This document shows, in pieces, positions 15,101 through 58,595 of a DNA stretch of 64,000 nt (position 1 is the stretch's first letter; the number at the start of each line of letters is the position of its first letter). The stretch is from Arctopsyche grandis (Eukaryota > Arthropoda > Insecta > Trichoptera > Hydropsychidae). A program made the position numbers and the translations under genes. Below the pieces are notes generated by a model that did no database searches, had not been told where the DNA came from, and saw only the letters and a list, made by a program, of their open reading frames with translations. The stretch lies in the NCBI RefSeq assembly GCF_051622035.1, contig NC_135360.1:8670001-8734000 (forward strand), in the 5' to 3' direction.

Positions 15101-15493
15101 ATGTGATCAAAATTGAATAAAAAATCTTTGTAAAACATGAATTTTGTTTATCATTTCGGGTAAGAAATCCTAAGCTGGGATGAACTTACTACTTCGTTTA
15201 AAAACAGGAGGCGAAACATTTGAAATTCTTTTGCAAAGTTGATTAATTTTATATATGGAAGGCTCAGAAAGAATAAAAATGTCGGCTGTGTTTTGTATGC
15301 GAGTATTCTAGAGGATTTTAATAGGGTGTACCTGTAATTCGGAGGCGTTCATCAAACGCATATGCAGGCCTACGTTTTCTCCGTCAATAAATATTGGAGT
15401 CATTTGCTGATTCTGGATGAGACAAGTCCTACAAACATCTTCCACGTTCAAAGGAAACTTCAGATCGTATAAAAACTCATATTCTTGTTCCAT
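6106..15493 (-). CDS. ZAD-type C2H2 zinc-finger protein, 17 fingers, 15 exons
   Basis: Exons, in order of translation: 15332-15493, 13999-14130, 13689-13922, 13492-13606 (alternative donor at 13486), 11768-11877, 11533-11700, 11279-11430, 11085-11206, 10627-10833, 9841-9972, 9601-9772, 7368-7517, 7121-7284, 6226-7050, 6106-6155. All junctions are GT/AG and phases agree throughout, giving 964 residues (966 with the other donor). Exons 1-2 form a ZAD dimerisation domain: CRTC, then NDGLPAQICNVC. Exon 3 is acidic with two copies of IHDE. Exon 5 is lysine-rich. The 17 C2H2 fingers run from CDEC (exon 4) to CKVC (exon 14), several joined by TGxKP-like linkers. An acidic tail of about 230 residues follows. 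ZAD proteins are nuclear DNA-binding regulators; the target is unknown. The start is the first ATG upstream of CRTC; further upstream in this frame only a TTG precedes it. Confidence 0.87.
8158..8545. repeat. foldback element, arms of about 180 bp
   Basis: The left arm from GGTGCATCCGCTCTAAAATC is repeated inverted up to GATTTTAGAGCGGATGCACC at about 8541. The arms match nearly throughout, including the blocks GATAGATTGCACA and GGCAAGATTCG, and meet around 8355. Both lie in intron 11 of the zinc-finger gene. No coding sequence is seen; the transcript should be able to form a very long hairpin. Confidence 0.8.
8590..8708. mobile_element. hAT-type MITE with 8-bp TSD ATAGAAAG
   Basis: 119 bp, beginning CAGTGGCGTGCGGTAAAATT and ending with the inverse of CAGTGGTATGCGGTGAAGTT. 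It is flanked on both sides by ATAGAAAG (8582-8589 and 8709-8716), a perfect 8-bp target duplication, which is diagnostic of hAT transposition. It carries a core (GAACAGGATACAAGGGGAAC) shared with other elements of this window. Confidence 0.85.
9004..9446. mobile_element. hAT-type non-autonomous element
   Basis: Left end CAGTGCCGGTTTTAGGG; the right end is the inverse of CAGTGCCGGCCTTACACCC. The 8-bp flanks TGTATATA and TATATATA differ at one base. 443 bp, no transposase frame. It lies in the same intron as the 8590 MITE and the 8158 foldback element. Confidence 0.75.
10032..10592. mobile_element. piggyBac-like MITE, TTAA target duplication
   Basis: The left terminus CCCTTTGAATGCTGAC and the inverted right terminus CCCTTTGAGTGTTGAC are bounded exactly by TTAA on both sides (10028-10031, 10593-10596). 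TTAA targets and termini starting CCC are hallmarks of the piggyBac superfamily. 561 bp, no transposase. A degraded sibling is at 34235-34770. The element lies in an intron between finger exons 9 and 10 of the zinc-finger gene. Confidence 0.82.
11942..12145. repeat. dispersed repeat fragment related to 30594-30955
   Basis: Shared blocks are the 'gttcatgaac' region, ACTAAAACCAATA-type sequence (inverse orientation), and the stretch around TTGCTATAATTCC/GGAAATTATAGCAA. The two copies are in opposite orientation and differ by deletions. Element class unknown. Confidence 0.4.
12176..12298. mobile_element. hAT-type MITE with 8-bp TSD ATGTACAT
   Basis: Starts CAGTGGCGGCTCGTCCATA and ends with the inverse of CAGTGGCGGCTCGTGAGAA. 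ATGTACAT flanks both sides perfectly (12168-12175, 12299-12306). 123 bp, no coding sequence. Confidence 0.85.
12407..12580. mobile_element. nested hAT-type insertion, TSD GTTATGAC
   Basis: 174 bp between identical 8-bp copies of GTTATGAC (12399-12406, 12581-12588) inside the 12312-13257 element. The ends TAGAGGTAGGACC and, inverted, TAAAGAGCAGACC are imperfect inverted repeats. The sibling at 48646-49006 provides the empty site. Confidence 0.75.
12679..13000. mobile_element. nested insertion with 8-bp TSD GTACATAC
   Basis: 322 bp between two copies of GTACATAC (12671-12678, 13001-13008). The inverse sibling at 48646-49006 reads straight through this point. Terminal inverted repeats are weak (...GTGCATC against GCATCCCC), so hAT membership is inferred from the 8-bp duplication. 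It includes long T and G runs. Confidence 0.6.
14164..14880 (-). mobile_element. SINE-like retroposon, antisense, lacking a tRNA head
   Basis: Read on the minus strand, 14670-14850 matches the body of the SINE at 23174-23617: TTGGATAT, GATCGTTTCC(C/T)ATCA, AGTTTGC(C/T)AAT, then TGAAACGGTT. On the minus strand the sequence ends near 14164 in an (AAATA)n tail preceded by a stem (GCACTCGTC against GACGAGTGTGC). The stretch 14240-14600 has no match in the SINE and may be a different 3' half or an insertion. No clear A and B boxes are seen at the 5' end. Confidence 0.45.
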
Positions 15494-15502
15494 ATTGTAC
15501 CA

Positions 15503-15674
15503 TTTGACAGCTGCTGTCAAACTAGTGTTTACATATGCCTTTCTTATACGAGTGGTCGTAAAACGATTTTTAGCAACCTCGCACTCTTTCAATTGTGTAG
15601 ATTTTATTATAATAAATTTTAATTGAATTACCTAATAATCGCAAGTTACTGATGAAACTTAGTTTCATCGATAG
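15503..15674 (-). promoter_or_regulatory. putative promoter region of the zinc-finger gene
   Basis: TTTGACAGCTGCTGTCAAA (15503-15521) is a 19-base near-perfect palindrome containing the E-box CAGCTG, ten bases upstream of the ATG. TATCGATG (minus, 15667-15674) is one base off the DRE octamer TATCGATA. Both motif types are known in TATA-less promoters of fly housekeeping genes. Their use here is inference. Confidence 0.35.
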
Positions 15675-16989: not shown

Positions 16990-19590
16990 TTTCTTCTTCT
17001 TCTTAATGCCTTGTCCGCAACCGAACGTTGGCGACCTCGTCGATTATTTGAAGATATCCGCATCGGTCTTCAACGGCTCGGAATAGATCTTCGGCGCTCA
17101 TATCGGTCCACATGCGCATGTTTCGAAGCCAAGATAACTTTTTCCTGCTAATCCATTTTTTTCCTTCTATTTTCCCCCATAGTTATCAAACGGAGAAATT
17201 CGTATTTTGGACCCCGTATCATGTGTCCGAGGTATTCCATCTTTCTCCGCTTGATGACAGAAACAAGTTTCCTGCCTCTCCCCATCATGCCGAGGACCGC
17301 TTCGTTTGATATCTTTTTGGTCCACGGAATCTTCAGCATACGCCTATAGACCCACATCTCAAAAGCTTCGATGCGGCTGATCATTTTGGTCTTCAGAGTC
17401 CACGTCTCACATCCGTGTAGTAATACTGTCCAGACGTAGCTCTTCGCGAATCTCAACCGCGTATGAACATTGAGATGCTTGTTTGTAAGCGTCGCCTTCA
17501 TTTTTACAAATGCTGTTCTAGCCATCTCGATGCGGATTCTTAGATCTTCATCTGGGCCCATCTCTTCATTCAGCCAGGTACCCAGGTATTTGAATCTTTT
17601 TACTCTTTCAATCACCTCTCCATCCAAGGTTAGATTCCCGGTGTCTGTTTGCATTCTATCTACTATCATAAATTTTGTCTTCTTTATATTTATGCGCAGA
17701 CCTCTTCGATTGCTTTATTGTTGTACACGATCTAGAGATCTTTGCAGGTCTGCTAAATTTTCAGCGACTAGTGCCGTGTCATCAGCATATCTTATATTGG
17801 TGATCGTCTCGCCGCCCATTTTGATACCCTCCGCTTCTTGGAGAGCATCGTGGAAGATGGATTCGGTGTAGGTTTTAAAAAGAGTAGGTGATAGGATGTA
17901 TCCTTGCCTGACGCCCCGCTCTATAGGAATCTCATCAGTGAATTGATCATCGACACGCACTACTGCAGTCTGATTCCAATAAATATTTCGTAGCAATCTG
18001 ACATCTTTGTCATCCAGGCCAATATTTTTTAAAGTTTCCATCAGGCGAGCGTGTTGGACACGGTCAAAGGCCCTTTCAAAGTCTATGAAGCAGATATACA
18101 CAGGTTTACGGACTTTGGAGTAGTAAGCAGGTTTACGGACTCTACATCTTTGGAGTAGTGTTTTCATGCAGAAAAGGGCCTCTCGGGTACCCAAGCCTCG
18201 TTTGAACCCAAACTGCTCTCCGCCAATCGCCTCTTCACACCGTGAGTAAATTATGTCCTGTATTATCCTAGTAGGATCTTCAATGTGTGACTCATTAGGC
18301 TAATTATTCTGAAGTCGCTACATGTCCTCGCGTTACTCTTTTTTGGCAACGGGATAAATATGGATTGTAATCAATCGCTAGGTAGTTCACCTGATAAATA
18401 TCTTTCATTGAAGAGTTTTGTGAGATATTCTATGTTATCGTCCTCCAATAACTTAAGGAATTCGGCAGGAATCAGATCCGGTCCAGTAGCTTTCCGACTC
18501 TTTGCTAGTTTTATAGCATGTTCCACTTTGGATTTCAATATATGTGTTCCCGTTTCTGGATCTTTAATATGCCCTTTAAAGACAATAGATCTGGTTTCTC
18601 TATTGTCTTTAAAGAGCGATTTTGTGTACTCAGTCCATTCCGATTTCTTTTCATCCATATTTAAAATGATTTTTCCATTTTTATTCCTAAGGAGTATGAA
18701 ATCTCTTTTTCTGAATGATCCTGTTGTTTCTTTTAGTTTTTTATGTACGTTAAATTCATCGTGTTTTTCTTGTAATTTTTCAATTTCGTCACATTTTTTT
18801 TTCATTTCTTTGATTTTCCTTTGAATTTGGTGGTGAATATTTTTATATTTTGTTGGATTATTATGTTTGTGTTTTCTACGTTCTTCCATTAAATGTATAA
18901 TTTCATCCGTCATCCAAGGTTGTTTTTTATTGATTATTTTATTTGTTTCAAGAAACTTTTTCCCAAATTGGGGTCATTGCTGATTTCATACCTTCCCACT
19001 TTAAGTTTACATTACTATTTTCTTCAATACATTTTTGTTTAAAATTTGTATTGATATCTTTTGTTTTATAAATCCAATCTTGGTTTAGGTTTTGATGTTC
19101 TTAAAATCTTTTTCAGTCTTATATTCAATTTCCCACTAAGTAGATTATGATCGGATGCCACGTCTGCACCAGAGTAAGTTGTCACCGATTTTATACTATT
19201 TTTTAATCTACTGTTTATCAAAATAAAGTCAATTTGGTTTCGCAAAATATAATCAGAACAGTCCATGTGTATTTCCATGTGTATAATCCAGGATTTCCAT
19301 GTGTATAATCTTCTTTTAGGTAGCTTAAAGAAAATATTCAAGATAACATACTGCTCTTCCTGGAAAAACTGAACAAGTCTGTCTCCTCTCTCATTTCTTT
19401 CTCCAAGTCCGAAGCGACCAGTTATACCCATTGTTTCTTCGTCTCCAACTTTGGCGTTGATATCTCCTATTATAATTTTAACATGTTTTTTCGTATATGT
19501 CATCAATTCTTTAATTTGTTGATAAAATTCTTCAATCTCATTTTCTTCTTTATCGAAAGTGCGGGCATACACTTGTATTATGTTAATTAA
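16990..19590 (-). pseudogene. RTE-like non-LTR retrotransposon, frame-broken
   Basis: Pieces in translation order: 19572-19066 is the C-terminal half of an AP-type endonuclease (IIIGDINAKVGDEE, ASDHNLL). 18913-18371 is the linker and RT fingers (SRKATGPDLIPAEFLKLL). 18194-17715 is the RT palm (FIDFERAFDRVQHARL, RGVRQGYILSPTLF, IRYADDTALV). 17669-17148 is the thumb and C-terminus (KYLGTWLNEEM, MEYLGHMIRG). At least three frameshifts separate them. The 3' end on this strand is an (AAG)n run near 16994-17003. The 5' end is cut at the (TA)n array starting at 19603. The RTE-like assignment comes from the short endonuclease-RT layout and the 3' simple repeat. Confidence 0.8.
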
Positions 19591-19599
19591 AATTCATTT

Positions 19600-24086: not shown

Positions 24087-35712
<11,626 letters not shown>

Positions 35713-38619: not shown

Positions 38620-41600
38620 ATGAAAAAGTCAGCTGATTTCTTGCGAGATGTAATCACTGTATTTTGCATGGTGACATTATCGCAAACAGTGTACGGACGT
38701 AAGTACATATACACAAAACTGTTAAAAATAAAAATACCTGTGGGTCCTTTTATATGAATGATAAAGTGAATGCTTATCTTGTTTGAGTAATAATTTAATC
38801 TGAAACAAATTTGCAGAAGAGGCATGCACTACTCCGTCGAATACTCCTGGAGTTTGCGTACTGGCTAATGCATGTCCATCAATATTTAAAATATTGATGA
38901 GCAGTATCAGAACACGTGAAGAGACGCAACTTTTACAAAGTTCCATTGTGAGTTGTCCACAAAGTGGCGATACAAAAGCGTGTTGCGAAAAACCCTCCAA
39001 GAGTTTGCGTAAGTTGTGATCTTTGCCTTGCTTAATTTTTACTCATTCATTCATTGCTTCTTTCAAGATTACGAAAAATACATTTAAACATTTTAAATTA
39101 TCAATTTCAGCACCATATCTCGTCGTCTGCAAACGCAATGATCCACAAATTAACAAATGCATAGAGAATTCTATTAAAGAAATGGGAGTGCGTATGGCGA
39201 TAGGTAATTCATTTTAAGTTTTGCCTAGTACATATATACGTATGTGTATGGAGGCAATATCATGCAACTAGAGAAAAATTATTAACCAAGTGTATAAGAA
39301 GCATTTCTAATGGTAAGAACACACTCAAAACTACAGCACGGCACACTTAGGTAGACTCCAGCTGTGATAAGCGTGTCTTCATGCCATTGGTAATTCGTAC
39401 AATCTAAAGTTTCTCCTACATTTCTTAAAATATGGGAATCACTGTCAAGCCTATATTAATACAAGGATAAAATATCACCGAAAATAATCTAGGGCGTGAG
39501 TTTTGCAAAGGATCGTGACGGCATAGATTAAGCGTGCTAGCGTTTTTTTTATTGTATGTGCAAAACTATCAAAACAACCCCCACTCTGTGTGTCTGCACT
39601 TTAAATGTTGAAACTTGTTGCCTCCATGTACATACATACATATATACATAGCATTTGTAATTTATCTAAAGTTTGATCGAAAACCGATGCTTAAATTCTT
39701 AAACACCTTTTTACAGGTGATTCGGACAATGGTGTAAAACAAGTTGAACCGATATTTGTCTCAAGATTCATAGATGGGATTTACCTGCCAATGGAAAATA
39801 TGGTTTTATATATGCAAAACGTGACATTTACTGGATTATCAAATTATCGAGTCAGCAATGCAAGGTACATATGTACATAGATAGTGCATTTAAATGTAGG
39901 TCAATTATATGTATATATATTTGTGCTTTAATTAAACCATATTTTCATTTTGCTCTAATTAAACCATATTGGTTTCAAACATAAATTGCACATATTATGT
40001 GATACGCTTCGCACATATGTACATAGATGTCTCTAAATAATATCGTGTAAAAATAATTTTTAATTTTAAATTCGCATCGTTTTAAAGCTTCATTTTTCAT
40101 ATCTTGACTATTGGAATAATAATAATAATAATAATAATCTTATATATAAAACCGAAACGGCGTCTGTAATTCGTTTGTGATTGACTGTTGTCAAAGTCGT
40201 TTCTGATTGGGTGGATTGGTCCACCCAATTGGTATTAATTAAAGACTCTCTAAAGTCGATGACCTAAAGCAGATTGTGTTTAGGTAATCTGTGTTTATAC
40301 CTGAAGGGTATAGACATTTTGTTGTAATCACCGAGACTCTTCACAAGTGTGTTAGTATGGTTATTAGTGATTCTGTCATAGAATCTATTGGTTAGTTTGT
40401 TAGTAATGTCTGTAACAAACGGAATATTATATATGGCATGCAGTTTTTTCAAGTAAGTATATATGGGTGTATTATAAATTATTTTGTATTACTTGGAGCT
40501 TGGAAAGGTTAGTATTCGAGGCGTTATTCCATACAGGTGAAGCATAGGTTAATAATGGTAATATGAGCGCGCGATATAATTTTATTTTATTTTGAGTTGA
40601 TAAAGAACTATGGCGATTAAATATTGGATATATTGAGGATATTCCCCGCATCACCTTGCATTTCGCTCCCTCAATGTGAATGTTACTCCTAAATATTTTA
40701 TTACTGACTGCCATTTCAGACTTTCTCCAGAGGGGATTTTCAGATCTGAACTTGGCTTATGCTTTCTAACACTAATGAATATGGCGTCTGTTTTGGTTTG
40801 ATTAATTTGAATTTTCCACTTAGTGAAGTGTTCAGTCATTATTTTAATTGTAAATTCAAGATTTTTAAGAATAGTGTCTGGTTTTTTGCTACTTGTGAAG
40901 CAAGCGGTATCATCTGCATATAGGGCTATGTCACAGTTTTTTGGAATAGGTATGTCATTTATATAAATGGAGAACAAGAGTGGGCCAAGCAAGCTCCCCT
41001 GCGGAATGCCAGCTGCGATTATTTTTGGAGACGATAATTAATTATTTACGCTAACCACTAGCTTTCTACGAGTTATGTACGATTTGATGATGAGAATTAG
41101 GTAGTTTGGTATTTCGTTAAGGAGTTTATGAATGAGTCCATCGTGCCAAACTGTGTCGAAAGCCTTTTTTATGTCGAGACATACCATTCCGGTACTTCTC
41201 TTCATATTAAAGTTCTTCGTCATGTGTTTAGTTAGTCTTGTTAGTTTTTGGGTCGTGGAATGTCCAGTGCGAAATCCAAATTGTTCATTTATTAATTTAT
41301 TATTTACGACTTTAAGTAAACGAGTGTAGATTATTTTTTCTAGAATTTTTGAATGCGTGCAAAGTAAGCTAATGGGTCGATAATTGGCCGGGTTTTTTGG
41401 GCTTTTGTCTGCTTCTGGGGACACCGCTTCTGGGGACATCGGAAACTTCCAATAGTCCGTCAAATTTGTTTTTCTCCTGAATTTTAAATTCAGGAGCAAT
41501 ATCTTTCACGTTCTTTGCCGTTTTGTTTGGAAACCCCCACTCGGTATCCATCTCAGCGGTCTGAGAGCAGCCTGGTTGAGGAGCTTCAGATGTTGCCATC

Positions 41601-43184
41601 AGTTGGGTCTTCGCATGGTGCCGACATGTGTTCTTTTTGTGTTCGTTGTGTGAGAGGTGTTTGTTGCGTATGTTGAAAAGGTGTGGGTTTTTTTGACGGT
41701 ATGACGTATCGCTGTATTATGACCGCTCGCACAGAGAGTACTTCTTCGATACGTCCGCTTGCACGGAGCGTCGAGAGACGAATGCATCTAAGGTATGGCC
41801 AGCAACATTGGATCTAGACTTAACGCCGTGATTCCTCAGTTATTAGCATTATACACTAACCACTGAACTATTTTGCTATTTTAACCGCTTAGACGCCCAG
41901 CCGACGCGCTGAGCGTATAATAGATACGGCTGTTTGCGCCTTAAGGCGCTTTGGGCAGCTAAGCGGTTAAAAGTAATAGACCTTGTATGTTTGTATTTAA
42001 CATCATTGCCAGAGACATCAGTCGAAAATAAATGTTTTGAGGGTAAAAATATATTTCAGAAACAGGTGTGGAGATCAGCAACTGAGTAATTTACTTGTAA
42101 TCACCAATAAACTTAGTTTTTTTCATACTTTCCCCTTTTATTTCTATATGTATGTATAAAGTCAAAAACTGGCCAACTTTTGTCGCCCCCCCTCCACCCA
42201 TGTAAAAAGCTGAAATATTTATTGGCTTCAGACAACAATTCTAATTTCAAATTTTAGATTAATTGGAAACGAAAAGAAAATAATGTACGACGCATACTAT
42301 GAACAATTACAAATAAAGAGTAAAATAAGACTCGAACGTCCAGGAATGCGTCGAATGCAGTTTGCGGGAATGATGTTAACCGGAGATATTGTCGGGAATT
42401 ACAGTAAAATATTATACACTTATACTTATACAAAAAATATATAATATGTATTATATTTAATTTCAATGTCTTTCTTTTGATTTCAGGTGCAAATGCTAAA
42501 TTTACATTAACTTACAAAATAATAAAAAGAGGTGACACGGAGTATATGGAATTCACTACAGTGAAAATAAATTTCGATATACATCAGAGTAACATTAAAC
42601 TATACGTAATGAATTCTGAAGTATCCTTATCAGGTAATTCTTGTCAACAACAAAAATATTCAGGTGTTTTAGATAGTTTTCAAGTAGCGACCTCTTTAAT
42701 AAAAATCAAATTTTACCCATGACCCCAACACATTCGAAAAAGGATTTTTTCAGTATAATATTGTTACTTCAATTTGAATTTGAAAATGTAAACAGTCAAT
42801 ATTTTATTAGAAACCCTATTTGGGACTGAGAATCCGTGTAATAATATATACCACTAGTGACATGGTGCACGCGTTCGTGCACGAGCACTGTATAATAAAC
42901 AGTCACTTGACAGAATCCGCGCATGCGCATTGTCATACAGTGTGACCTGACATAATAGAATGTAAAATAATTCAAAAAAGCACCTTAAAATACTTAAACC
43001 CAAGAATGTCATAAAGACATTACAGAACATAATGAAAATATTTATTTCATGTTTTTCAGAAAACGATAATTATCTCGCGGCATTGACACCTGAAATAGAA
43101 AAATCATTTGCAAATACTTATCTGAACGCCGCAAATGAATTCATCTCGCAGTATACGTACAATCAACTGCTTCCAGAATCCTAA
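38620..43184 (+). CDS. gene B: secreted CLIP-domain/takeout (JHBP) fusion protein
   Basis: Exons 38620-38698, 38817-39008, 39111-39203, 39717-39864, 42258-42403, 42487-42633 and 43060-43184; GT/AG borders, phases 1, 1, 1, 2, 1, 1; 309 residues. Signal peptide about residues 1-26 (VFCMVTLSQTVYG). Residues about 28-90 have six cysteines spaced as in a CLIP domain: CTTP, GVCVLANAC, SC, then CC. After it comes a full JHBP/takeout domain: the disulfide pair VCKRNDPQINKC, IENSIKEM, VEPIFVSRFIDGIYL, FTGLSNYRVSNAR and C-terminal SQYTYNQLLPES. There is no protease domain. CLIP modules otherwise act in protease cascades, and takeout domains bind apolar ligands; how the two work together is unknown. Intron 4 holds a Jockey remnant and a piggyBac-like MITE. 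Polyadenylation signal AATAAA at 43252. An in-frame ATG at 38548 is possible but would bury the signal peptide. Confidence 0.88.
38817..39008 (+). other. CLIP-domain exon of gene B, symmetric phase 1-1
   Basis: 192 bases. The exon enters and leaves in phase 1 (C|AA ... TTG C|). It encodes six cysteines with 9, 5, 26, 8 and 0 residues between them, inside the range of CLIP domains. The equivalent gene C exon is the same length and 48 of 65 residues are identical by hand count. Confidence 0.82.
39430..39600. repeat. half copy of the 29018 foldback MITE
   Basis: Shares GGAATCACTGTCAA, AAGGATAAAATATCACCG and GCATAGATTAAGCGTGCTAG with the left arm at 29030-29165. Just upstream, 39343-39390 (TTAGGTAGACTCCAGCTGTG) matches 28409-28455, so the same composite region is represented in both introns. 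Confidence 0.55.
40138..40235 (+). repeat. possible Helitron-like 5' end and 10-bp hairpin
   Basis: TCTTATATATAAAACCGAAA starts with TC after an A, as Helitron 5' ends do. ATTGGGTGGA/TCCACCCAAT (40206-40215 with 40220-40229) forms a perfect stem around TTGG. No matching 3' end was identified. Confidence 0.3.
40250..41800 (-). pseudogene. Jockey-clade retrotransposon with internal deletion
   Basis: On the minus strand 41599 starts an ORF1-like N-terminus (MATSEAPQPGCSQTAEMDTE) that runs directly into RT fingers (NPANYRPISLL). ORF1's zinc knuckles and the whole endonuclease are therefore missing. RT motifs follow in broken frames: MVCLDIKKAFDTVWHDGLIH, GPLLFSIYINDIPIP, ALYADDTACF, YASPVWNNAS. 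Upstream 41600-41790 is probably the 5' UTR. It sits in intron 4 of gene B, antisense to it. Confidence 0.8.
41885..41966. mobile_element. 82-bp piggyBac-like mini-MITE
   Basis: CCGCTTAGACGCCC at the left and the inverse CCGCTTAGCTGCCC at the right, bounded exactly by TTAA (41881-41884, 41967-41970). Different termini from the 10032 family, same target. In intron 4 of gene B. Confidence 0.75.
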
Positions 43185-43509
43185 AATAAGCACATACACA
43201 CACACATATGTACATAATTAGGTGTGATACTGAACGAATATTCAAAATTGTAATAAATATTTTAACTTATTTTTAATTCAATTAAAATGAACTTGATCAC
43301 TAAGACATTATCCATATTATTGTAATATTCACAATGGCAAATACATGTACATACATATGTGTAATTTATTTACTTTTTTTTAAATAAAAAATAAAAGCTT
43401 GTTGATACTGTTTTATTTATACTAGAGAAATTTATACCGACATTTTAGATTAAATATGCATTTTTAAATTTTTGTTGACGAAATCTGACAATACTATATA
43501 CATATATAC

Positions 43510-43711
43510 GGTAAATGGACTATTTCGCACATTGCGATCGCGCACACAACAATCGTCGTGACCAAAATCGCGAATACGGAACATTTGGCAATGGCGATTA
43601 CGTTTGAAGCTCTCGATGGATGAAATCTTCGGTTCGAGTTCGAAATCTTCTTCCGTGATCGAGATTTTAGTGACGTGTGCGAGATCACTTTGTGCGAAAT
43701 AATCTACAAAC
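43510..43711. mobile_element. MITE with GGTAAATGGACTATT termini, 9-bp flank
   Basis: Left end GGTAAATGGACTATTTCGCA; inverted right end GTTTGTAGATTATTTCGCA. Flanks CATATATAC and CATATGTAC agree at eight of nine positions. Same family as 16109-16312. Confidence 0.65.
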
Positions 43712-43739
43712 CATATGTACATATATAGATACATTTTTT

Positions 43740-44610
43740 TCTTTCTTTTCTTCTTTGGTGCCATCTATCTTTCGGTCATGTACGGGAAATAATCTTCCAA
43801 GATTACGAATTGGTATTCCGAATCTCTCACATCCAGACTGCCAGTTCTTGAGGCTTTTTCTTCTTAAACGCCTGGAGAGTTGTGTTCAGTAAATGCAAGG
43901 ATTCTATATTGGAGTGACGGTGCAGTCTCACATCTTACTGTTTGGATTTTCAGGTCTGCGTTTGTAATAAAGCAATATGCATTGGGATGATCCTCAGACA
44001 CTGGTTTTGGCATCTTTGCACATATTCGATATTGGATGGCCTACTGCACCTCCACAGTTGTATGCCATACGTTTATACTGGCTTCATACTGGCCTGGTTT
44101 ATTATTTTTTGCAGTACAGGTCCAATTTGGAGTGTATTTGTATTAGCCAGTACATCTCTTTCTGTTCGATTCGAATATGCTCTATTTTTTTTTTTTCTTT
44201 CTAAAGGCATCATGCTTCGATGTAAGCCTTGAGTTGAGGTGCAGGTCTAAAATGACTGAATTAGCTTGTGGAATTTGAAATCTATTGATGAAAGTCTGAA
44301 GTTTGATATAATTTGGTCGCAGCGTAAATGTGACTGCAAATGTGTTGATTTGAGCTCGATCAGTTTTATCTTCCAATCCTTGGTCTATTTTTTGATTCCG
44401 TTGAAGGCACGTTGCAAGCGTTCATTTTCTTCCACTTGCGACTCCCTCGCTGTCATAATCTTTGTGTCATCGGAAAATGTTCTAATGAATGTTTCTTTTC
44501 GTGTTGGTATGATAAGATAGGTTCCATTAGACTTTCCTCCGATACTCCTGTCTCTGTAAAAAGCCTCATCATAGGCAACTCTGAATTTGTGAACGGGTAG
44601 GCACAACTCG
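43740..44610 (-). pseudogene. 5'-truncated copy of the 54 kb Jockey family
   Basis: Minus-strand frames give FRVAYDEAFYRDRSIGG, ETFIRTFSDDTKIM, VTFTLRPNYIKLQTFINRF and LDLHLNSRLTS. These are colinear with FRVAHEEAF, TFADDTVIM, VTFALRRN and LGLHLDSRLTW of the element at 54376-58771. Its 3' end (GGCACCAAAGAAG then A-rich, on the minus strand near 43740) marks the same point where the long poly(A) starts at 58722 in the full element. Many frameshifts. Confidence 0.8.
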
Positions 44611-45164
44611 AGTCATTTGCAATAAGAAATACAGCTGGACAATATTTCTTGCCTTTTAACGATTGTTAAATTTTCATAATCACACGGTGCACTTGAACGA
44701 TATTAGAGTGTTAATTCTTAAAGTTAAATTGGAAGTCGGGAATATCAATTGGCGGCTTGAGTCTTTTCAGTAGTAATATGTACATGCAATTACTCAATCC
44801 TAGATTGACAGCATTTCTTTGCAATCAAACGGAACATGCACAAAAAATTGTAATGATGTCTAACAATGTCTAAGATGTCTAACAGGTGTAAAATTACGAG
44901 TAAATGGAAATAAACCTCCCAAACTATGTCTTCATGGTGTTTAAATATCACATAAAAATGCTATCTGACATATATACATATTTAAATAATTTATTACAAA
45001 TGACCTCTATTGATTCTGAAAAACAAGACAGGCCAATTTGAGAGAATATTTTTTATTATCTTAGTAAACGTCGCAAAATTTCATACATAAATATTTAGAT
45101 AAGGAAAATAATTGTTTATTCAATATTACATATTTTATCAAATATACATAGAATATATTTATAA

Positions 45165-46700
45165 AAACATAACCCAGTGCAGTACACTGGTTTTCATTTG
45201 ATGAAATTAAAGGGCCAATTTCATAAGAATTCTAAAAAAAAAATTGGGTACAAAAATAAACCAAAAAGAATTTTACAATTTTTAAAAGCACAATTTGAAT
45301 TTCTGAATAAAAACTTATAGTGCATTGCTATGATTTAGGTGAATGCGTCACGATAATATCCAAAATTCTGATGTGATCGACCATGACTTTATCTATATAT
45401 TTGAGGAATATAAGAAAGTCGCAAAACAAAATTCGATAATTAAACATACATAAACGTTCACACATACCGCTTACTCTGCTCTTTTTCCTATTATGCTTTA
45501 GATTAACATTAGAATAATATAATACTGTGATTACTAACCAAATTAAATTAAATTGTAAAATAGAAAATGATCATTAGATCAGTAGCTATTAAAATAGATA
45601 TAAGATGTATTGTGAACATAATTTCGTAATAATAAAAAGCATTTAAAAATCAAAAAAAAAATACCGCTTACGAAAGCATTTTCGATACAAATTGAGCGCA
45701 AATATAGGGGAACTTACACAAAACAAAAGTTCTACTCTACGGTTGTCGGATTTTGTTCAAAATTTATTATTATACTCATTAAATATCAAGAAAATAAAAA
45801 TAATTTAAAAGGTCGAAATAAAATAATGAAATATTGTTTTAAAACAAATACTATTTCTGGTTTACGAATTCTAACCAAAATCTTATGAGCTCTAAGTTAG
45901 TACACAAAGAATACATATATAAATTTTCAGCTTGATACGTTCAAGGGTGTGGACAGAATAGTGGTCACAACATTTTTGACCTTTCTAAGAGGAAAAAATC
46001 CCACTTCCGGTTCATTAAATTTGGTGATTTTCATCACATTAATACGCTTCATATTCATTCACATTAATATGTAAAATTTTCGTGAAGAGCGCACATTTTA
46101 AAAGGGTCGAAAAAAATAACGGAAGAAAAATTTAACAAGAGTAAACTGCCACTTTCAGTTGACGGATGCTTACCAAATTTTATACATAGCTTGGTATTAA
46201 ACTTAAACTTCTATATATGAAAATTCAATTCAATAAATCAATAGGTTTTTGAGAAAAACATAAAAAAAACCTCGATTCTCTAGAGTAAAAGTACTACTTC
46301 CGCTTCAGATAAAAATATTCAAAAAATATTACGGTATAAAATTTATATTTCTATTACATATAAAAAAAATTCGGGCAGCGGTTTGAGAGATAATTGAATT
46401 CAAAAACTTAAAAAAAGGGAAGAACCATTTGCGGTCAACTTAAAAATTTACGTGTATATCGATAAGAATTTCAGTAACTGATACTATGTTTCAGTTCGAT
46501 AGGACTAACGGTGTTCAAAAAATCCCCAAAATACACAGACACACACACATTTTTTCTAGATCATGAAAACGTGATCAGTGATTAATTCTGAGTTCGAATC
46601 AGTCAAAATCTCGAGTTTGAATTTTCGCATAATCACAAAACTTCATCCATGTATTGTTACATAGACAAAGTAAAAATGTAAAATAATGTAATTTAAATGT
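45165..46700. repeat. dispersed repeat R, longest copy
   Basis: Unknown class. It shares CAGTACACTGGTTTTCATTTG, TACTTCCGGTT-type blocks, ACGTGATCAGTGAT and GAATCAGTCAAAAT with 47540-48290, 51705-52040 and 60060-60480. No protein family was recognised and no TIR or tail defined. It lies immediately upstream of gene C. Confidence 0.5.
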
Positions 46701-46867
46701 ATTATTTCTGACTAACCGCCACTGATTTACACACATACTTATGTAAATAGATTACAGAGAAAAAAATGTATGTACATGCATACATATAGTCAACTATGAA
46801 TTAGATTCCATCACCAGTGCTATTTCAATCTTAACGGAGTCATCTTTCAAATTTTGCATTGGTAAAA

Positions 46868-49827
46868 ATGAAGAACTCAACTTATTTCTTGCTAGACATC
46901 GTCTTAGTTTTTTGCCTGGCGACATTATTACAAACAGTATACGGACGTGAGTATAAAAAAGCTTGAAAAATTGTTATAAAAATCAAAATTATTTCATTAC
47001 ACACGTCCTCGTTTATCTGAGCAGCAGAGTCTTATTTCAACGGAAATTCAAATTGCAGAACAGCCTTGCACCACTCAATCTTTTAGGCCTGGAGTTTGTG
47101 TACTGGCCAAAGCATGTCCACCCATAGTTAAAATATTGATGAGTAGCATGAGGACACGTGAAGAGACACAACTTTTACAACATTCTATTCGCAGTTGCAC
47201 GCAAACTGGTAGCACAAAAGCGTGTTGCGAAAAACCGACCATGGACTTGCGTAAGTTAAAATCCTCATTTTATTGAAAAAAAAATCGATTTCAACTAGTG
47301 CTGTGTCTGTACATACTTATGTATACATACATACATAATATATGTATGTATGTATGGAGGTGTGACTCATATTTGATACTTTTTGTTAATATTGTTGATT
47401 TCAGCACCATATCTTAGGGTATGCAAACGCAACGACCCATATTTTGACACATGCATAGAGAATTGTATAATAGAAATGGGAAAACGCTTGGAAAAAGGTA
47501 TTTATTCTATTTCAAGTTTTGGATAATACATTTATTTACATGGTGTAGTGAATCTGATGTGACCAACCTATGATTTTATCTGATTTATTTGAGGAACATT
47601 AGTAGTATAAAAAAAAAAAGGTCAATGAAACCTACATACACGTTCACACATACTGGCTATGAGAGCATTTTCGAATTGAACACAAGTGTAGGGAAACTTA
47701 CACAAATTAAAATCCAATTTACACCACAATCATGAAAAGTAGAACAAGAGTAAACTGCCATTTCCGGCTGACTGATCTTCATTTAATTTTATATGTTGCT
47801 GGTATTACGCTTTTTAGCTTTTTTTTTTTTAAAAATCAAGATTTAGTTCAATATCCTGAAAGGTTTTAGAAGAAAAAAGTATCGATTCTCTTAAAAGTAA
47901 AAAAAAAACACTACATACTTCCGATTGAGGTAAAAATATTTAAAAAATTACTTTATATAACTTATTGTTCCTATTACATGTGAAACAATTTGAGTCCAAT
48001 CCTTCAAGCGGTTTATGGGATAATTGTATCCAAAAAAATTTTAAAAACCTTACTGGGGAGATACCATTTTCGGTTAACCTAAAATTGAAAAAAAAATGAA
48101 TTAACGATAAGTTTCAGTGTGATGGCCCTAACGGTATTCGAATTAAATCCAAAACACAGACTCACATTGTACTTACACACACACAAGTCATGTAAACGAA
48201 ATCAGTGATCGATTCTGAGGTCAAATCAGTCAAAATTAACGCATGATCATAAAACTTCAACTATTGTTCCAACATACATACATTGCATACATACATATGT
48301 AGATGAAACAAAGTTATCCGAAGCATCTTTTAATGTTGAAACTTGTTAGTTGAAACTGAAAATTGTTGAAGATTACCAAACACTTTTTTACAGGTGATTC
48401 CGAGTTCGGTATAAAGGAACTTGAACCAATTTTCGTGGAAAACTTTCTAGATGGACTCTTCTTGCCAGGAAATTTGATTTTGTATTTACAAAACGCAACA
48501 TTTACCGGATTATCAAAACAACGAATTAGCAATGCAAGGTGAATAGCGCATGTAAATATTTGTTTTACACTTAACATCACCGTTACGACTTTTAACGGTG
48601 ATTTTTGGATTAAAAAATGAAAATAAATATGGATATTATGTATATCAGAAGCGTCGCTAGGCCCGTGCGGGGAGTGCGGTCTACACCGGGAGACACCTCA
48701 TTGCAGTTTCTGTATATATACAGCTTTCTGTATATATACAGCTACCGCGAAATCCGTCTGCTGCTGCTATATACCTATGTATATGGCATCAAATATGAGC
48801 TATAATTGGCATTTTTTTCTAATTCTTGAGAAATCAGTATGTATGTACCTAAAGGTAAGATGATTAACTGATTCAGTCAGACGGAGACGCAATCCAGAAA
48901 CATCGTGTGAACTTAGCTTCACTCTCGTAAATCATAATAATTAACAAATATTAATAATTAATAAAAAATATTTTTTTATGTGGCACCACCCCTAGCGACG
49001 CCACTGATTATTTCATATATTCATGAATATTTTGACTAAGATGTACCTGGTATTTAATAAAGAAATAAAAAACACACATGTTACCTTTCAAATTTTAGGT
49101 TCAGTGAAAGCGAGAAGAAAATTACTTATGATGCAAACCATGATCATTTATTCATAAATAGTAGTATAAGCGTGGACCTGCCAGGAAATAGATTCTCAGT
49201 TTTTCCGTTTTTCAGGGGAAATATTTTCGGGGACTACAGTAAGATGCACATTCATGATGTACATATGTACATACATTGTGCATATGTGTACATATATGTA
49301 TAATAAATATACACATGCACATTTGCTTATATAGACTTCGATGTTTTTTCTGTTGATTTCAGGTGCAAATTCTAAATTTACATTAATTTATAAATTAATC
49401 AGAAGAGGTGGAACCGAGTATATGGAGTTCACTTCAGTGGATATAAAATTAAATTTACGACAGAATAGCATAAGATTTTACACGAGTGGAGGGGATTCAT
49501 ACTTAGGTGAGTTTTGTCGACATTAAAAAAACGTATGCAATAATATAGTGAAATATTTGGAAACAAAATCAAAAATATTATAATTAAAACGTTCCTTCAC
49601 TCGATTTTAAACACTCCAATATAAACGTAAACTTTTGATTTGATTTAGCATAGAAGTACAAATAAATGATTGATGAGAAATTTTCGAAATACTTTTCAGG
49701 AAACGACGATCAATATCTTGGGGCGTTGGCACCTCAGATAGAAAAATCATTTGAGAACACCTATTTCGACGCTGCTAATGAATTTGTCTCCCAATATACA
49801 TATAATCAATTGTTTCCAGAATTCTAA
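46868..49827 (+). CDS. gene C: secreted CLIP-domain/takeout (JHBP) fusion protein
   Basis: Exons 46868-46946, 47059-47250, 47405-47497, 48394-48538, 49099-49238, 49363-49506 and 49700-49827; same phases as gene B (1, 1, 1, 2, 1, 1); 306 residues. Signal peptide LVFCLATLLQTVYG. CLIP module with six cysteines (CTTQ, GVCVLAKAC, SC, CC), then the JHBP domain: VCKRNDPYFDTC, LEPIFVENFLDGLFLPG, FTGLSKQRISNAR, IFGDY, EYMEFTSVDIKL and SQYTYNQLFPEF. It is clearly a tandem duplicate of gene B. The CLIP exon is better conserved between them than exon 5, which has diverged strongly. The first JHBP exon has an extra cysteine (IENCIIEM), so disulfide pairing may differ. Polyadenylation signal AATAAA at 49902. 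Confidence 0.88.
47059..47250 (+). other. CLIP-domain exon of gene C, symmetric phase 1-1
   Basis: Same length (192 bases), same phases and the same six-cysteine spacing as the gene B exon. Differences from B are mostly outside the cysteines and outside the shared core KILMSS(I/M)RTREETQLLQ. Confidence 0.82.
47540..48290. repeat. dispersed repeat R in intron 3 of gene C
   Basis: Partial copy of 45165-46700: GAACAAGAGTAAACTGCCAT, TTCAATATCCTGAAAGG-like and GATCGATTCTGAGGTCAAAT blocks in the same order. Confidence 0.5.
48646..49006 (-). mobile_element. hAT-type element, empty-site sibling of 12312-13257
   Basis: Inverted CAGTGGCGTCGCTAGGGGTG at the right end (49006) and CAGAAGCGTCGCTAGGCC at the left. 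Its interior is colinear with the 12.3 kb element (CTAAGTTCACACGATGTTTC, CAGACGGATTTCGCGGTAGC) but lacks the two nested insertions. In intron 4 of gene C. No clear 8-bp duplication is left. Confidence 0.75.
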
Positions 49828-54330: not shown

Positions 54331-54553
54331 AGGTGTATATGTATGTATATGTATATATGTGTATTTAATTTATAGTTCGTCGCCGTACACGGTTGCAATC
54401 GGTCGATGTCCGTTATCGCCTTATCGCGTTCGATATATTACATTTATAAACTTTATAAATATATAATAATTATAATATAATATAATAAGTGAATACACAA
54501 CAAGAAAATCAAACTGTTACCGGCGCGGCGCAGTTTTGCACCCGTTCTGAAAA

Positions 54554-55945
54554 ATGAACACAGATAATCCAGTGCCACTGGCGCAGCAGTACGATCCGTA
54601 TGATCAACTTACACATCTATGCCAACAATATGAAATCAGATGCAAACAATATGAGATAACTATAACCGATTTAAAGAAAAGAATTGAAATAATGGAAAAA
54701 AAATCCAGGCCTTTTACATCTATTCTAAATAGGAGCAAAAGTCTTGACAATATGAATAAAGACTACCACACGGATGAAGAAGAACTTGAAAATGAACTTA
54801 GCCAAAATGCAGAGAAAAGAAGTAAAAAAAGAAAAATAGATAAAGTATTATCTTCCCCGCAAAATAACCTGAAAGAAACACAAAAACAGCAAACCAATAA
54901 ACCTAACAAACAACCACTTCCACCGCCTATTTATGTGAGCAATGTTATTGACTTCAATAAGTTTAGAGCTCATCTATTATCAACAACAGAAACACCACCC
55001 ATTCAATGTCAATTTAAATTAATTTCAAATAATAGTATCAAAATCACTACACAAACCGAAGAAGATTATCGCAAAATCAAAAAAACACTAAATGATTTAA
55101 AACAACGTGAATGTAAAGACAACGAAAACCCCCTTCACAATCTAGAGTACCACACCTATCAACTCAAGAATGAAAGGTGCTATAGAGTGGTTGTTAGAGG
55201 TTTACCGCCATCAACAGACGTTAATGAAATAAAAGATTCTTTCAAAGATAAAGGATACGAAGTGGCCAATGTGGCAAATATTATGAAGAAATTTACAACC
55301 GATGGTGAAAGACAAATAAAACATTTCCCACTATTTTTTGTAGACCTGGTGCCAAAAGAAAACTGTAAAGAAGTATATGGTATTAAAGAACTTCTACATT
55401 GCAGAGTAACAATTGAACCACCAATGAAAGTAAAAGACATCCCTCAGTGTACAAACTGTCAACAACTTGGGCATACAAAAAATTTTTGCAATCGACAACC
55501 TAAATGCGTCAAATGTGCCGCAGACCATCACACAACAAAATGCAACAAGCAGAAAAATGTTCCCCCAACTTGTGCCCTGTGTGGCCAGCAAGGACATCCA
55601 GCTAGCTACAGGGGGTGTGAGGTCTATAAAAAAAAGATAAAAGCATCACAACCCAAAAAGGTAACAGTAACACAACGCGTACAACAAAATCAAATTGAAG
55701 TTGTTGATAAACAAACAACTGTGGACAAAACATATAGTGAAGCAGCTAAGTCCCAAGCAGACAAAAGCAAACAAGATATCGGGCAGGAAAATAAATCAAC
55801 TGAACCTACCATCGGTGGCATGATGCAGTTGCTATGTGACTTTCAAACTGAAATAAAACACCAACTCAACTGGCTCATAACCAGAGTGGAAAAAATTGAA
55901 AATCAGTGCAAATCACCAAGTAAACATAATAAAAATGACAGATAA
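54554..55945 (+). CDS. Jockey ORF1: gag-like nucleic-acid chaperone
   Basis: 463 residues. A coiled-coil-prone, charged N-terminus (about 20-110) is followed by a central domain around residues 210-290 (YRVVVRGLPPSTDVNEIKDS), as expected for the domain preceding zinc knuckles in Jockey ORF1. Three cysteine-rich knuckles come next, at about 297-360: CTNCQQLGHTKNFC, CVKCAADHHTTKC and CALCGQQGHPASYRGC. Jockey ORF1 proteins bind the element RNA and accompany it to the nucleus. The TAA stop overlaps the start of ORF2 by 11 bases. Confidence 0.87.
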   Translation: MNTDNPVPLAQQYDPYDQLTHLCQQYEIRCKQYEITITDLKKRIEIMEKKSRPFTSILNRSKSLDNMNKDYHTDEEELENELSQNAEKRSKKRKIDKVLSSPQNNLKETQKQQTNKPNKQPLPPPIYVSNVIDFNKFRAHLLSTTETPPIQCQFKLISNNSIKITTQTEEDYRKIKKTLNDLKQRECKDNENPLHNLEYHTYQLKNERCYRVVVRGLPPSTDVNEIKDSFKDKGYEVANVANIMKKFTTDGERQIKHFPLFFVDLVPKENCKEVYGIKELLHCRVTIEPPMKVKDIPQCTNCQQLGHTKNFCNRQPKCVKCAADHHTTKCNKQKNVPPTCALCGQQGHPASYRGCEVYKKKIKASQPKKVTVTQRVQQNQIEVVDKQTTVDKTYSEAAKSQADKSKQDIGQENKSTEPTIGGMMQLLCDFQTEIKHQLNWLITRVEKIENQCKSPSKHNKNDR

Positions 55946-58595
55946 TTCCCTACGCATATTAACATGGAATGCAAACGGACTCAATCAGAGAGTCCATGAA
56001 CTTGAAGTGTTTCTAAAGACAAACAACATCGATCTAGCACTAATATCAGAAACACACTTTTCACAAAGAAGTTACATAAAGATAAACGGATACTCGGCTT
56101 ATTGGACAACACATCCTAGTGAACGAGCTCGCGGTGGTACTGCTATTTTAATCAAAAAAAATATCCAGCACTTCGAACAAAAAGATATCAGAGAACCATT
56201 CATGCAAGCTACTATCATCACAATTAAATATGGCAATGCTGACTTAAATATTGCTGCAGCATATTGTCCTCCAAAGCATACCATCACAAAATACCAATTT
56301 ATAAACATCTTTAATTCCCTTGGGCCAAGATTTATTATTGGAGGAGACTACAACGTTAAACATACAGCTTGGGGATCACGACTTATAACTCCTGGTAAAG
56401 GAAACAACCTTCTATACGCGATTCAGAGCTCCTCGTGCGAGTATCATTCCTCACAAAAACCAACCTTCTGGCCGACCGACAGTAAAAAGGTACCAGATTT
56501 AATTGACTTTTTTATATCCAAAGGAATAGCCCCAAACCACATTGAGGTCGAAGGAATAGAGGACCTTACTTCTGATCACACACCAGTGCTAATGACACTG
56601 AGCACACTGGTAATTAAAAGAATAAGGAGACAGAACCTGACAAATAAACGCACTAACTGGGATATGTTCAGGAAAAAACTAGACCAATCAATAAATTTAA
56701 TAGTGAAACTTAAAACTATAGAAGATCTCGAACTACACACTCAAAATTTTATTGACTATGTACGAGAGGCTGCGAAAGAAGCTACACCTGTACCAAAAGA
56801 AAAACCAGACCAAATCATTAATTACCCCATGGAAATTAGACAATTGATTAAAGAAAGATGTAGAACAAGACGAATATGGCATAGAACCAGAAATATTGCA
56901 GACAAAAGAGAATTTAACCACATAAGTAACAAAGTTAACCGACTTATTAAAGAGCACAAACAAAATTGTTTTGAAAAATATTTGGAAGGTTTGGGCCCTG
57001 CAGCTGATAAAAATCATTCACTATGGAAAGCAACTAGGAAATTCAAACGACCAATTCTACAAATACCACCTCTGAAAAATGCACAAGGAGAGTGGATAAG
57101 AAGCAACAAAGAAAAAGCTGAGCTGTTTGCACAACACTTAGAGACAGTATTCCAACCACACAATATTCAATCTGATGCTGATTATACACCAATGTATCAA
57201 CCACAGCAACTAATCAAAACTGTCACCCCTATGGAAGTAGCTAAAGAAATAGATGACAACATAAATCCTAAAAAGGCACCTGGAATTGACGAAATCTCAC
57301 CGGGACTATTCAAGGAACTTTCGAAAAAGGCTATTATCATGCTAACATACTTATACAATGCATGTTTCCGGCTCAAGCATGTGCCAGAGTGCTTCAAAAC
57401 TGCTCAAATCATAATGTTGAAGAAACCAGAAAAGTCACCCGAACAAGTAACATCATACAGACCAATATCCTTGTTGCCTGCGATCTCTAAGCTATTCGAA
57501 AAACTATTATTAAAAAGACTCAAGCCCTTAATCGATGTTCCCGACTTCCAATTTGGATTTAGGTCGAAACATTCTACCATCGATCAAGTGCACCGTGTTA
57601 TTTCAAAAATAGAGCAATCGCTAGAGGAAAAAAAGTATTGTCCGGCTGTATTTCTTGATGTCTCACAGGCCTTCGACAGGGTATGGCACGAAGGACTTAT
57701 CCACAAAATCAGCAAGTCATTACCTGGAAATTATGTCAAATTACTGGAATCATACTTATCCGGACGCAAATTCAGAGTTGCTCATGAGGAGGCATTCTCT
57801 AACTTTTTCACAGCCTCTGCAGGAGTACCACAGGGAAGCGTAATAGGGCCTATACTGTACCTGATATACACTGCTGACATCCCGACAAGCGAAGAGACAT
57901 TCATTGGAACATTTGCAGATGACACAGTCATTATGTCATCGAGCGAGTCACAGGAGGAAGCATTTGAACGCCTGCAGCGTGCACTGGACAAGATCAGCAA
58001 ATGGACCAAGGACTGGAAAATGAAACTCAACGAGCTAAAATCAATGCAGGTCACATTTGCACTGCGACGAAATAGTGTCAGCACTCAGACTTTCATAAAC
58101 GGAATCCAAGTTCCACAAGCTTTGTCAGCTAAATATTTAGGACTGCATCTTGACTCAAGGCTTACGTGGAGGCATCACATTAAAAAAAAAATAGAACAGA
58201 TTCGAATTAAACAAAGAGAAATGCATTGGCTAATAGGAAGACACTCCAAATTAGACCTACAATGCAAAAAACTGATATACCAGGCAATCGTGAAGCCAAT
58301 ATGGACATATGGCATACAACTGTGGGGATGCAGTAAGCCATCCAATATCGAAAAAATGCAAAGATGTCAAAACCAGTTTTTGAGGATTATCACCGATGCA
58401 TATCGCTTCGTCACAAATGAAGAGATCCACAAGGACCTTAAAATCAAAAAAGTAAAAGAAGTCATCCGAGAATGCGCCGGGAGGCACGAGTTGAGACTGC
58501 ACCGTCACCCTAACATAGAAGCGCTGCAGCTATTGGACACAACTCACCAGCAGAGGCGTTTAAAGCGAAAAAAGCCTCACGAATTGGTGTTCTGA
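55935..58595 (+). CDS. Jockey ORF2: AP endonuclease-reverse transcriptase
   Basis: 886 residues from the ATG that overlaps the ORF1 stop (ATGACAGATAA). Endonuclease: LTWNANGL (about residue 9), ISETHF, GGDYNVKHTAWGS and the terminal SDHTPVL. Reverse transcriptase: fingers TSYRPISLLPAISKLFEKLL, palm VFLDVSQAFDRVWHEGL (about 572), AGVPQGSVIGPILY (about 628) and catalytic TFADDTVIM (about 659), then thumb KYLGLHLDSRLTWRHH. All catalytic boxes are intact, so target-primed reverse transcription looks possible. No RNase H domain is seen, as usual in the clade. Confidence 0.9.
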   Translation: MTDNSLRILTWNANGLNQRVHELEVFLKTNNIDLALISETHFSQRSYIKINGYSAYWTTHPSERARGGTAILIKKNIQHFEQKDIREPFMQATIITIKYGNADLNIAAAYCPPKHTITKYQFINIFNSLGPRFIIGGDYNVKHTAWGSRLITPGKGNNLLYAIQSSSCEYHSSQKPTFWPTDSKKVPDLIDFFISKGIAPNHIEVEGIEDLTSDHTPVLMTLSTLVIKRIRRQNLTNKRTNWDMFRKKLDQSINLIVKLKTIEDLELHTQNFIDYVREAAKEATPVPKEKPDQIINYPMEIRQLIKERCRTRRIWHRTRNIADKREFNHISNKVNRLIKEHKQNCFEKYLEGLGPAADKNHSLWKATRKFKRPILQIPPLKNAQGEWIRSNKEKAELFAQHLETVFQPHNIQSDADYTPMYQPQQLIKTVTPMEVAKEIDDNINPKKAPGIDEISPGLFKELSKKAIIMLTYLYNACFRLKHVPECFKTAQIIMLKKPEKSPEQVTSYRPISLLPAISKLFEKLLLKRLKPLIDVPDFQFGFRSKHSTIDQVHRVISKIEQSLEEKKYCPAVFLDVSQAFDRVWHEGLIHKISKSLPGNYVKLLESYLSGRKFRVAHEEAFSNFFTASAGVPQGSVIGPILYLIYTADIPTSEETFIGTFADDTVIMSSSESQEEAFERLQRALDKISKWTKDWKMKLNELKSMQVTFALRRNSVSTQTFINGIQVPQALSAKYLGLHLDSRLTWRHHIKKKIEQIRIKQREMHWLIGRHSKLDLQCKKLIYQAIVKPIWTYGIQLWGCSKPSNIEKMQRCQNQFLRIITDAYRFVTNEEIHKDLKIKKVKEVIRECAGRHELRLHRHPNIEALQLLDTTHQQRRLKRKKPHELVF

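Follow-up and report, generated by a model that had tools for sequence, protein, structure and literature searches.

Gene models and domains at the locus

The window, i.e., the whole 64-kb stretch of DNA analysed here (C6:8670001-8734000 of a 475.7-Mb genome in 189 contigs), contains two tandem genes of seven exons apiece, g1 and g2, which encode proteins of 309 and 306 aa, respectively, and share 61% identity (Table 1). Both were rebuilt with open frames and without internal stops; all introns are GT-AG and their phases run 1,1,1,2,1,1 in either gene. The preliminary description had reported two complete seven-exon genes at these coordinates, with intact splice sites and every CLIP cysteine kept, and the rebuilt models bear this out, the junctions 38698/38817, 39008/39111, 46946/47059 and 47250/47405 being exact. 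In each protein a putative signal peptide, judged by eye, is followed by a CLIP domain and then by a JHBP/takeout domain. An exon-wise search of the genome with g4, covering the best candidates, placed CLIP and JHBP matches together at four places only, namely g1, g2 and the complete genes g3 and g4. The latter two, on C9 and C1, have CLIP exons that closely resemble those of g1 and g2; they encode proteins with hydrophobic starts (by eye) and have the same number of exons and the same intron phases as g1 and g2.

Table 1. Genes, exons and other features in the window and at related loci (bare positions refer to the window, prefixed positions to the named contig)
Feature	Position	Strand	Description
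g1	38620..43184	+	309 aa
g1 exon 1	38620..38698	+	signal peptide (by eye), ends in phase 1
g1 exon 2	38817..39008	+	complete CLIP, 192 nt, symmetric phase 1-1; 46.2 bits alone (cut-off 20)
g1 exon 3	39111..39203	+	start of JHBP/takeout, holds its two cysteines
g1 exon 4	39717..39864	+	JHBP
g1 exon 5	42258..42403	+	JHBP
g1 exon 6	42487..42633	+	JHBP
g1 exon 7	43060..43184	+	JHBP C terminus and stop
g2	46868..49827	+	306 aa
g2 exon 1	46868..46946	+	signal peptide (by eye), ends in phase 1
g2 exon 2	47059..47250	+	complete CLIP, 192 nt, symmetric phase 1-1; 39.8 bits alone (cut-off 20)
g2 exon 3	47405..47497	+	start of JHBP/takeout
g2 exon 4	48394..48538	+	JHBP
g2 exon 5	49099..49238	+	JHBP
g2 exon 6	49363..49506	+	JHBP
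g2 exon 7	49700..49827	+	JHBP C terminus and stop
g3	C9:8838719-8835157	-	complete CLIP-takeout gene, 303 aa
g4	C1:19050362-19053913	+	complete CLIP-takeout gene, 302 aa
g0	24087..35712	+	ordinary takeout without CLIP, 247 aa; JHBP 271.5 bits
g0 exons	24087-24156, 27364-27455, 27544-27692, 29599-29732, 35414-35712	+
g9	C6:9110882-9112191		CLIP-less takeout gene, first three exons modelled
Similar last exons	C6:9121879, C6:9128844
Four takeout-type genes	C6:8739770-8747887		directly downstream of the window
Seven other CLIP loci	C2:3868288, C4:4309345, C7:29495641, C7:29911011, C9:850832, C9:858733, C10:271495		CLIP, Sushi-like exon
Broken reverse-transcriptase-like frames	40472..41505	-	non-LTR type, in g1 intron 4 (by eye)
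Long retrotransposon-type frames	54551..58595	+	non-LTR type, 464 and 904 aa (by eye)
Several long retrotransposon-type frames	17148..19593	-	non-LTR type (by eye)
Zinc-finger-like frames	6179..15631	-	like C2H2 zinc-finger exons, ZAD-like start (by eye)

The naming of the two domains in the preliminary description was confirmed by Pfam, both passing the curated cut-offs in both proteins. CLIP (PF12032, cut-off 20) scores 42.0 and 35.4 bits in full-length g1 and g2, and 48.5 and 46.2 bits in g3 and g4; JHBP (PF06585, cut-off 29.2) scores 91.4, 87.7, 87.9 and 95.8 bits in g1 to g4, with matches that span the profile from position 8-11 to 239 of 239. The four CLIPs have six cysteines each, spaced 9-5-26-8-0 in g1 and g2, where Cys5 and Cys6 are adjacent, and the gap between Cys3 and Cys4 is 26, 26, 24 and 24 residues in g1 to g4. 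According to the available part of PMC4676143, the gap between Cys2 and Cys3 is five residues in every clip domain of the species studied, and group 2 domains have 22-26 residues from Cys3 to Cys4; the CLIPs of all four genes fit both the five-residue rule and the group 2 range given there. In the 64 kb, searched on both strands, a CLIP-like six-cysteine pattern matches only g1 and g2. A chance match of six cysteines is ruled out by the Pfam scores above cut-off, by the purifying selection on g1 and g2 and by the occurrence at four loci. When bacterial/archaeal and viral contigs were searched for the CLIP pair, 23 and 42 pattern matches came up, and none of them is a relative. For the pair of CLIP exons, AlphaFold reached a mean pLDDT of 50.3, too poor for judging the clip fold or its disulfides.

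The start of the JHBP domain carries the N-terminal cysteine pair that is a hallmark of the takeout/JHBP family (residues 97/107 in g1, with equivalents in g2 to g4). In g1, the stretch between the last CLIP cysteine and the JHBP exon is just seven residues long. A profile built from g1 to g4 matches solved structures of both domains in the PDB: CLIPs (2ikd, E 0.0002; 2ike, E 0.001), JHBPs (27gy, E 0.0009; 2rck, E 0.002) and a takeout-family protein (9ink, E 0.007). The two CLIP entries are those of Manduca PAP-2, a prophenoloxidase-activating proteinase. The JHBP bodies have diverged, scoring 88-96 bits vs 271.5 for the ordinary takeout g0, and on these sequences their ligand binding could have been lost.

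Scans for Rfam, tRNA and NCBIfam gave no matches. Frames of non-LTR retrotransposon type occur at three places, one of them within g1, and zinc-finger-like frames lie towards the start of the window (Table 1).

CLIP-less relatives, selection and origin

Upstream of g1 and g2 the window holds g0, which the preliminary description had not listed and which provides an empty-site comparison. The exon for its signal peptide finishes in phase 1 and is followed straight away by the JHBP part, and no CLIP-like pattern was found in its first intron, a phase-1 intron corresponding to the position occupied by the CLIP exon in g1 and g2. A second CLIP-less gene, g9, lies on the same chromosome about 0.4 Mb from the pair. 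Its first JHBP exon of 93 nt has the same phases as in g1 to g4, and a phase-1 intron of 85 nt stands where those genes carry the CLIP exon. Two similar last exons occur further along the chromosome. Four more takeout-type genes follow directly downstream of the window, and the 20 kb holding them contains no CLIP-like pattern. Thus, the g1/g2 pair sits within a takeout cluster.

Trees of the two domains were consistent with each other. JHBP trees were based on about 80 residues, with rows hand-picked from 97 exon matches in the genome. In the 29-row tree, from which one short row had been removed, g1 to g4 form one clade (support 99/99). In the 23-row tree, obtained by leaving out eight rows (four short ones from C10, one from C1 and three near-copies from C7) and adding g9 and a C6:9137 gene, the clade is recovered at 98/94, and the CLIP-less g9 is its sister (100/99), with at most 37% identity to its members. 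Since the rows cover part of the family, a closer CLIP-less relative than g9 may exist. The CLIP tree, comprising 34 of the 37 CLIP matches in the genome (three C13 matches omitted) and 53 columns, again unites g1 to g4 (96/95); its deep forks are weak and single out no donor of the CLIP exon. Independent CLIP-JHBP fusions are contradicted by these trees, because the four genes form a single clade for either domain, which argues for one fusion followed by duplication.

In addition, the position of a phase 1-1 CLIP exon inside a phase-1 intron of CLIP-less paralogues, g9 included, points to exon shuffling, and the empty site in the sister gene renders this origin unusually clear. The simplest history suggested by the sequences is one insertion in intron 1. 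In a takeout gene, a self-contained phase 1-1 CLIP exon would have landed in this intron, so that it came to lie between the parts for signal peptide and JHBP, and the fused gene would then have duplicated locally and onto two other chromosomes. The introns and near flanks of g3 and g4 align at 80-88% identity, a pattern indicative of copying at the DNA level from one chromosome to another rather than of a retrocopy. Taken together, the architecture and origin of this CLIP-takeout family can be proposed with high confidence.

The preliminary description held the architecture to be under constraint. This stands for g1 and g2, which at dS 0.70 have dN/dS of 0.23 in the CLIP exon (p 2.5e-5) and 0.39 in the JHBP part (p 7e-7), both below 1 in a simple Fisher test. 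It does not extend to the young pair g3 and g4 (dS about 0.1, and 0.11 in JHBP), where dN/dS is 0.77 for CLIP and 1.30 for JHBP and neutrality is not rejected for either part (Fisher test; p 0.45 for the JHBP excess). Between the subfamilies, g1/g2 and g3/g4 share 52-65% identity in CLIP and 32-37% in JHBP, and the higher conservation of CLIP is significant in all four comparisons (Fisher p 0.0001-0.005); dN/dS between subfamilies is rough, owing to synonymous sites near saturation.

CLIP exons elsewhere in the genome

Pfam found no trypsin domain in the proteins of g1 to g4, and no trypsin lies within 15 kb downstream of their CLIPs among the matches listed. A motif search of the surroundings of g3 (25 kb) and g4 (24 kb) detected no GDSG or AAHC string and just two IVGG-like strings, isolated and well distant from g4. 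A missed protease part is excluded by the Pfam result, the downstream comparison with the trypsin matches listed and the motif search around g3 and g4, and the earlier statement that these genes have no protease part is thereby upheld.

A CLIP-family search of the genome gave 37 matches. At least 26 of them have a same-strand trypsin match within 15 kb downstream among the trypsin matches listed, one of these, at 12 kb, being doubtful as it may belong to the next gene. The trypsin list derives from scoring 150 of 462 candidates, yielded at least 176 matches and was compared by a hand-copied part; the 11 CLIPs left without a trypsin neighbour were checked by eye against the remaining trypsin matches listed. 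These 11 comprise the four takeout genes and seven loci of another type, in all of which a Sushi-like exon, recognised by eye, follows the CLIP. When four of the seven were tested with Pfam Sushi, one stayed below the cut-off of 20.7 with 18.3 bits, and the other three had no match. BTB-, BACK- or Kelch-like exons were recognised in the flank covered at five of the seven. Scores above the Pfam cut-offs were obtained for BTB, BACK and Kelch at the C10 locus, for BTB at C4 and for Kelch at C9:858733; BTB at C7:29495641 fell just below (19.9 vs 20.5); at C7:29911011 the assignment was made by eye. The C10 locus also has a signal-peptide-like start, by eye. A secretory start would be an odd feature for a BTB-Kelch protein, and the exons are a candidate single transcription unit.

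A rough reading of splice motifs at 34 CLIP matches revealed a phase-1 acceptor before the CLIP and a good phase-1 donor right after it in g1 to g4, compared with none of 23 protease-type CLIPs. Six Kelch-type loci share this arrangement, the donor being weak at the remaining one. In the CLIP tree, the Kelch-type and takeout CLIPs are loosely grouped (82/62), together with two protease CLIPs. No published combination of CLIP, Sushi, BTB and Kelch was found in the open-access literature. One speculative and rather doubtful reading is that in this insect lineage CLIP is a mobile, self-contained phase 1-1 exon added at least twice to unrelated bodies (four takeout genes and seven Kelch-type loci), acting as a general extracellular address tag and not as a protease regulator. 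If true, such a tag would bring differing cargo proteins, takeout in one case and Sushi-like/BTB-BACK-Kelch in the other, to one CLIP-binding surface.

Possible roles and comparison with known systems

CLIPs may dock to extracellular protease and phenoloxidase complexes. Clip domains have been proposed to mediate protein-protein interactions or to regulate cascades, as stated in the available part of PMC4676143. Since the g1-g4 profile matches JHBPs, a takeout-family protein and the PAP-2 CLIPs, these proteins would most likely act as ligand carriers that dock through CLIP. By analogy with relatives, which bind apolar ligands in an internal tunnel, the JHBP part would carry a small apolar ligand, and CLIP would dock this carrier to an extracellular partner such as a protease, a phenoloxidase or a cofactor, so that lipid or hormone would reach places where proteolysis or melanisation is under way. 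The stronger conservation of CLIP than of JHBP might be expected of a docking head whose partner is fixed. Points against this proposal are the diverged JHBP bodies, the open frame that g1 and g2 retain on skipping the CLIP exon, the absence of purifying selection between g3 and g4 and the poor AlphaFold model. This mechanism is put forward tentatively, at somewhat less than even chances; for the whole proposal of a small secreted-type two-domain family of shuffling origin with a docked-carrier role, the chances are about even.

Other explanations also deserve consideration. An assembly or modelling artefact in which two genes are read as one is highly improbable: four loci agree in their order and phases and all have open frames, the trees agree and the sister gene g9 shows the empty site. 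The earlier judgement that the architecture is not a one-off model error is accordingly sustained by four genes, a single origin and a sister gene without CLIP. The preliminary description had suggested either a tether between carrier and protease cascades or a decoy. In decoys or inhibitors, CLIP would rival genuine clip proteases and homologues for a partner and so damp melanisation or a Toll-type cascade, with JHBP merely a stable body. The absence of the protease, the better conservation of CLIP and the many clip proteases available to compete with (at least 26 of the 37 CLIP matches have a trypsin downstream among the matches listed) speak for it. Nevertheless, a mere spacer would hardly be conserved as the JHBP part is between g1 and g2 (dN/dS 0.39, p 7e-7), and a decoy role appears improbable. 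Still less probable is that CLIP represents a removable pro-part or a leftover, the mature product being an ordinary takeout. The seven-residue distance between the last CLIP cysteine and the first JHBP exon would fit, and takeouts need the JHBP part alone; across subfamilies, however, CLIP is the more conserved part, and the six cysteines are kept in all four genes.

Two further possibilities are each unlikely, if less so. When the CLIP exon is skipped in translations of g1 and g2, the frame stays open and a normal takeout N terminus results, so that CLIP might be optional in these genes. Depending on whether a tissue or stage includes the CLIP exon, the same gene could then yield either a soluble takeout or a form docked through CLIP. 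The exon is symmetric (phase 1-1), but such symmetry is expected for any shuffled exon, and both the exon and its GTAAGT donor are retained in all four genes. The domain mix might also have arisen from an arms race in a fast-evolving secreted product of saliva, seminal fluid or the like, rather than from docking in the haemolymph. This would agree with the JHBP dN/dS of 1.30 at dS 0.11 between g3 and g4, with copies on three chromosomes and with a second CLIP-bearing non-protease type in the genome; against it, the excess is not significant and g1 and g2 are under purifying selection. More generally, these genes keep a well-conserved CLIP and replace the protease with a putative hormone or lipid carrier, a natural experiment that separates CLIP from protease regulation. 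Both the binding partner of CLIP itself and the delivery of apolar ligands to immune cascades thus become testable.

Regarding novelty, no description of CLIP joined to JHBP/takeout was found in the open-access literature, and no open-access paper was found that brings PF12032 and PF06585 together. In the available parts of three papers, clip-domain and takeout/JHBP proteins appear as separate proteins (PMC8454146, PMC7681983, PMC2646746), and a term search of the available text of another found neither takeout nor JHBP (PMC12758981). The preliminary remark that no family is known to join the two domains fits the open-access literature searched; across insects it stands as provisional.

Compared with the takeout/JHBP family (PF06585), g1 to g4 have in common the JHBP domain, the N-terminal cysteine pair and the intron between signal peptide and JHBP found in CLIP-less genes, and g1 and g2 adjoin other takeout genes. 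They differ in that the usual layout places JHBP straight after the signal peptide whereas these genes interpose a CLIP exon, and in their diverged bodies, with JHBP scores far below that of g0. Clip proteases require a linker that carries an activation site and joins CLIP to the protease domain. CLIP is known as an N-terminal part of serine proteases and homologues (PMC4676143). With the clip-domain members of that group, g1 to g4 share a CLIP above cut-off, six cysteines, the five-residue gap between Cys2 and Cys3 and the group 2 spacing; by contrast, the trypsin domain is absent, g1 passes from CLIP to body without an activation-site linker, and the self-contained 1-1 CLIP exon was seen in none of 23 protease-type CLIPs in the rough splice-motif reading. 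The CLIP/Sushi-like/BTB-BACK-Kelch loci resemble g1 to g4 in their phase-1-flanked CLIP exon and in having no downstream trypsin among the matches listed, but their body is Sushi-like with BTB, BACK and Kelch where seen, whereas that of g1 to g4 is JHBP.
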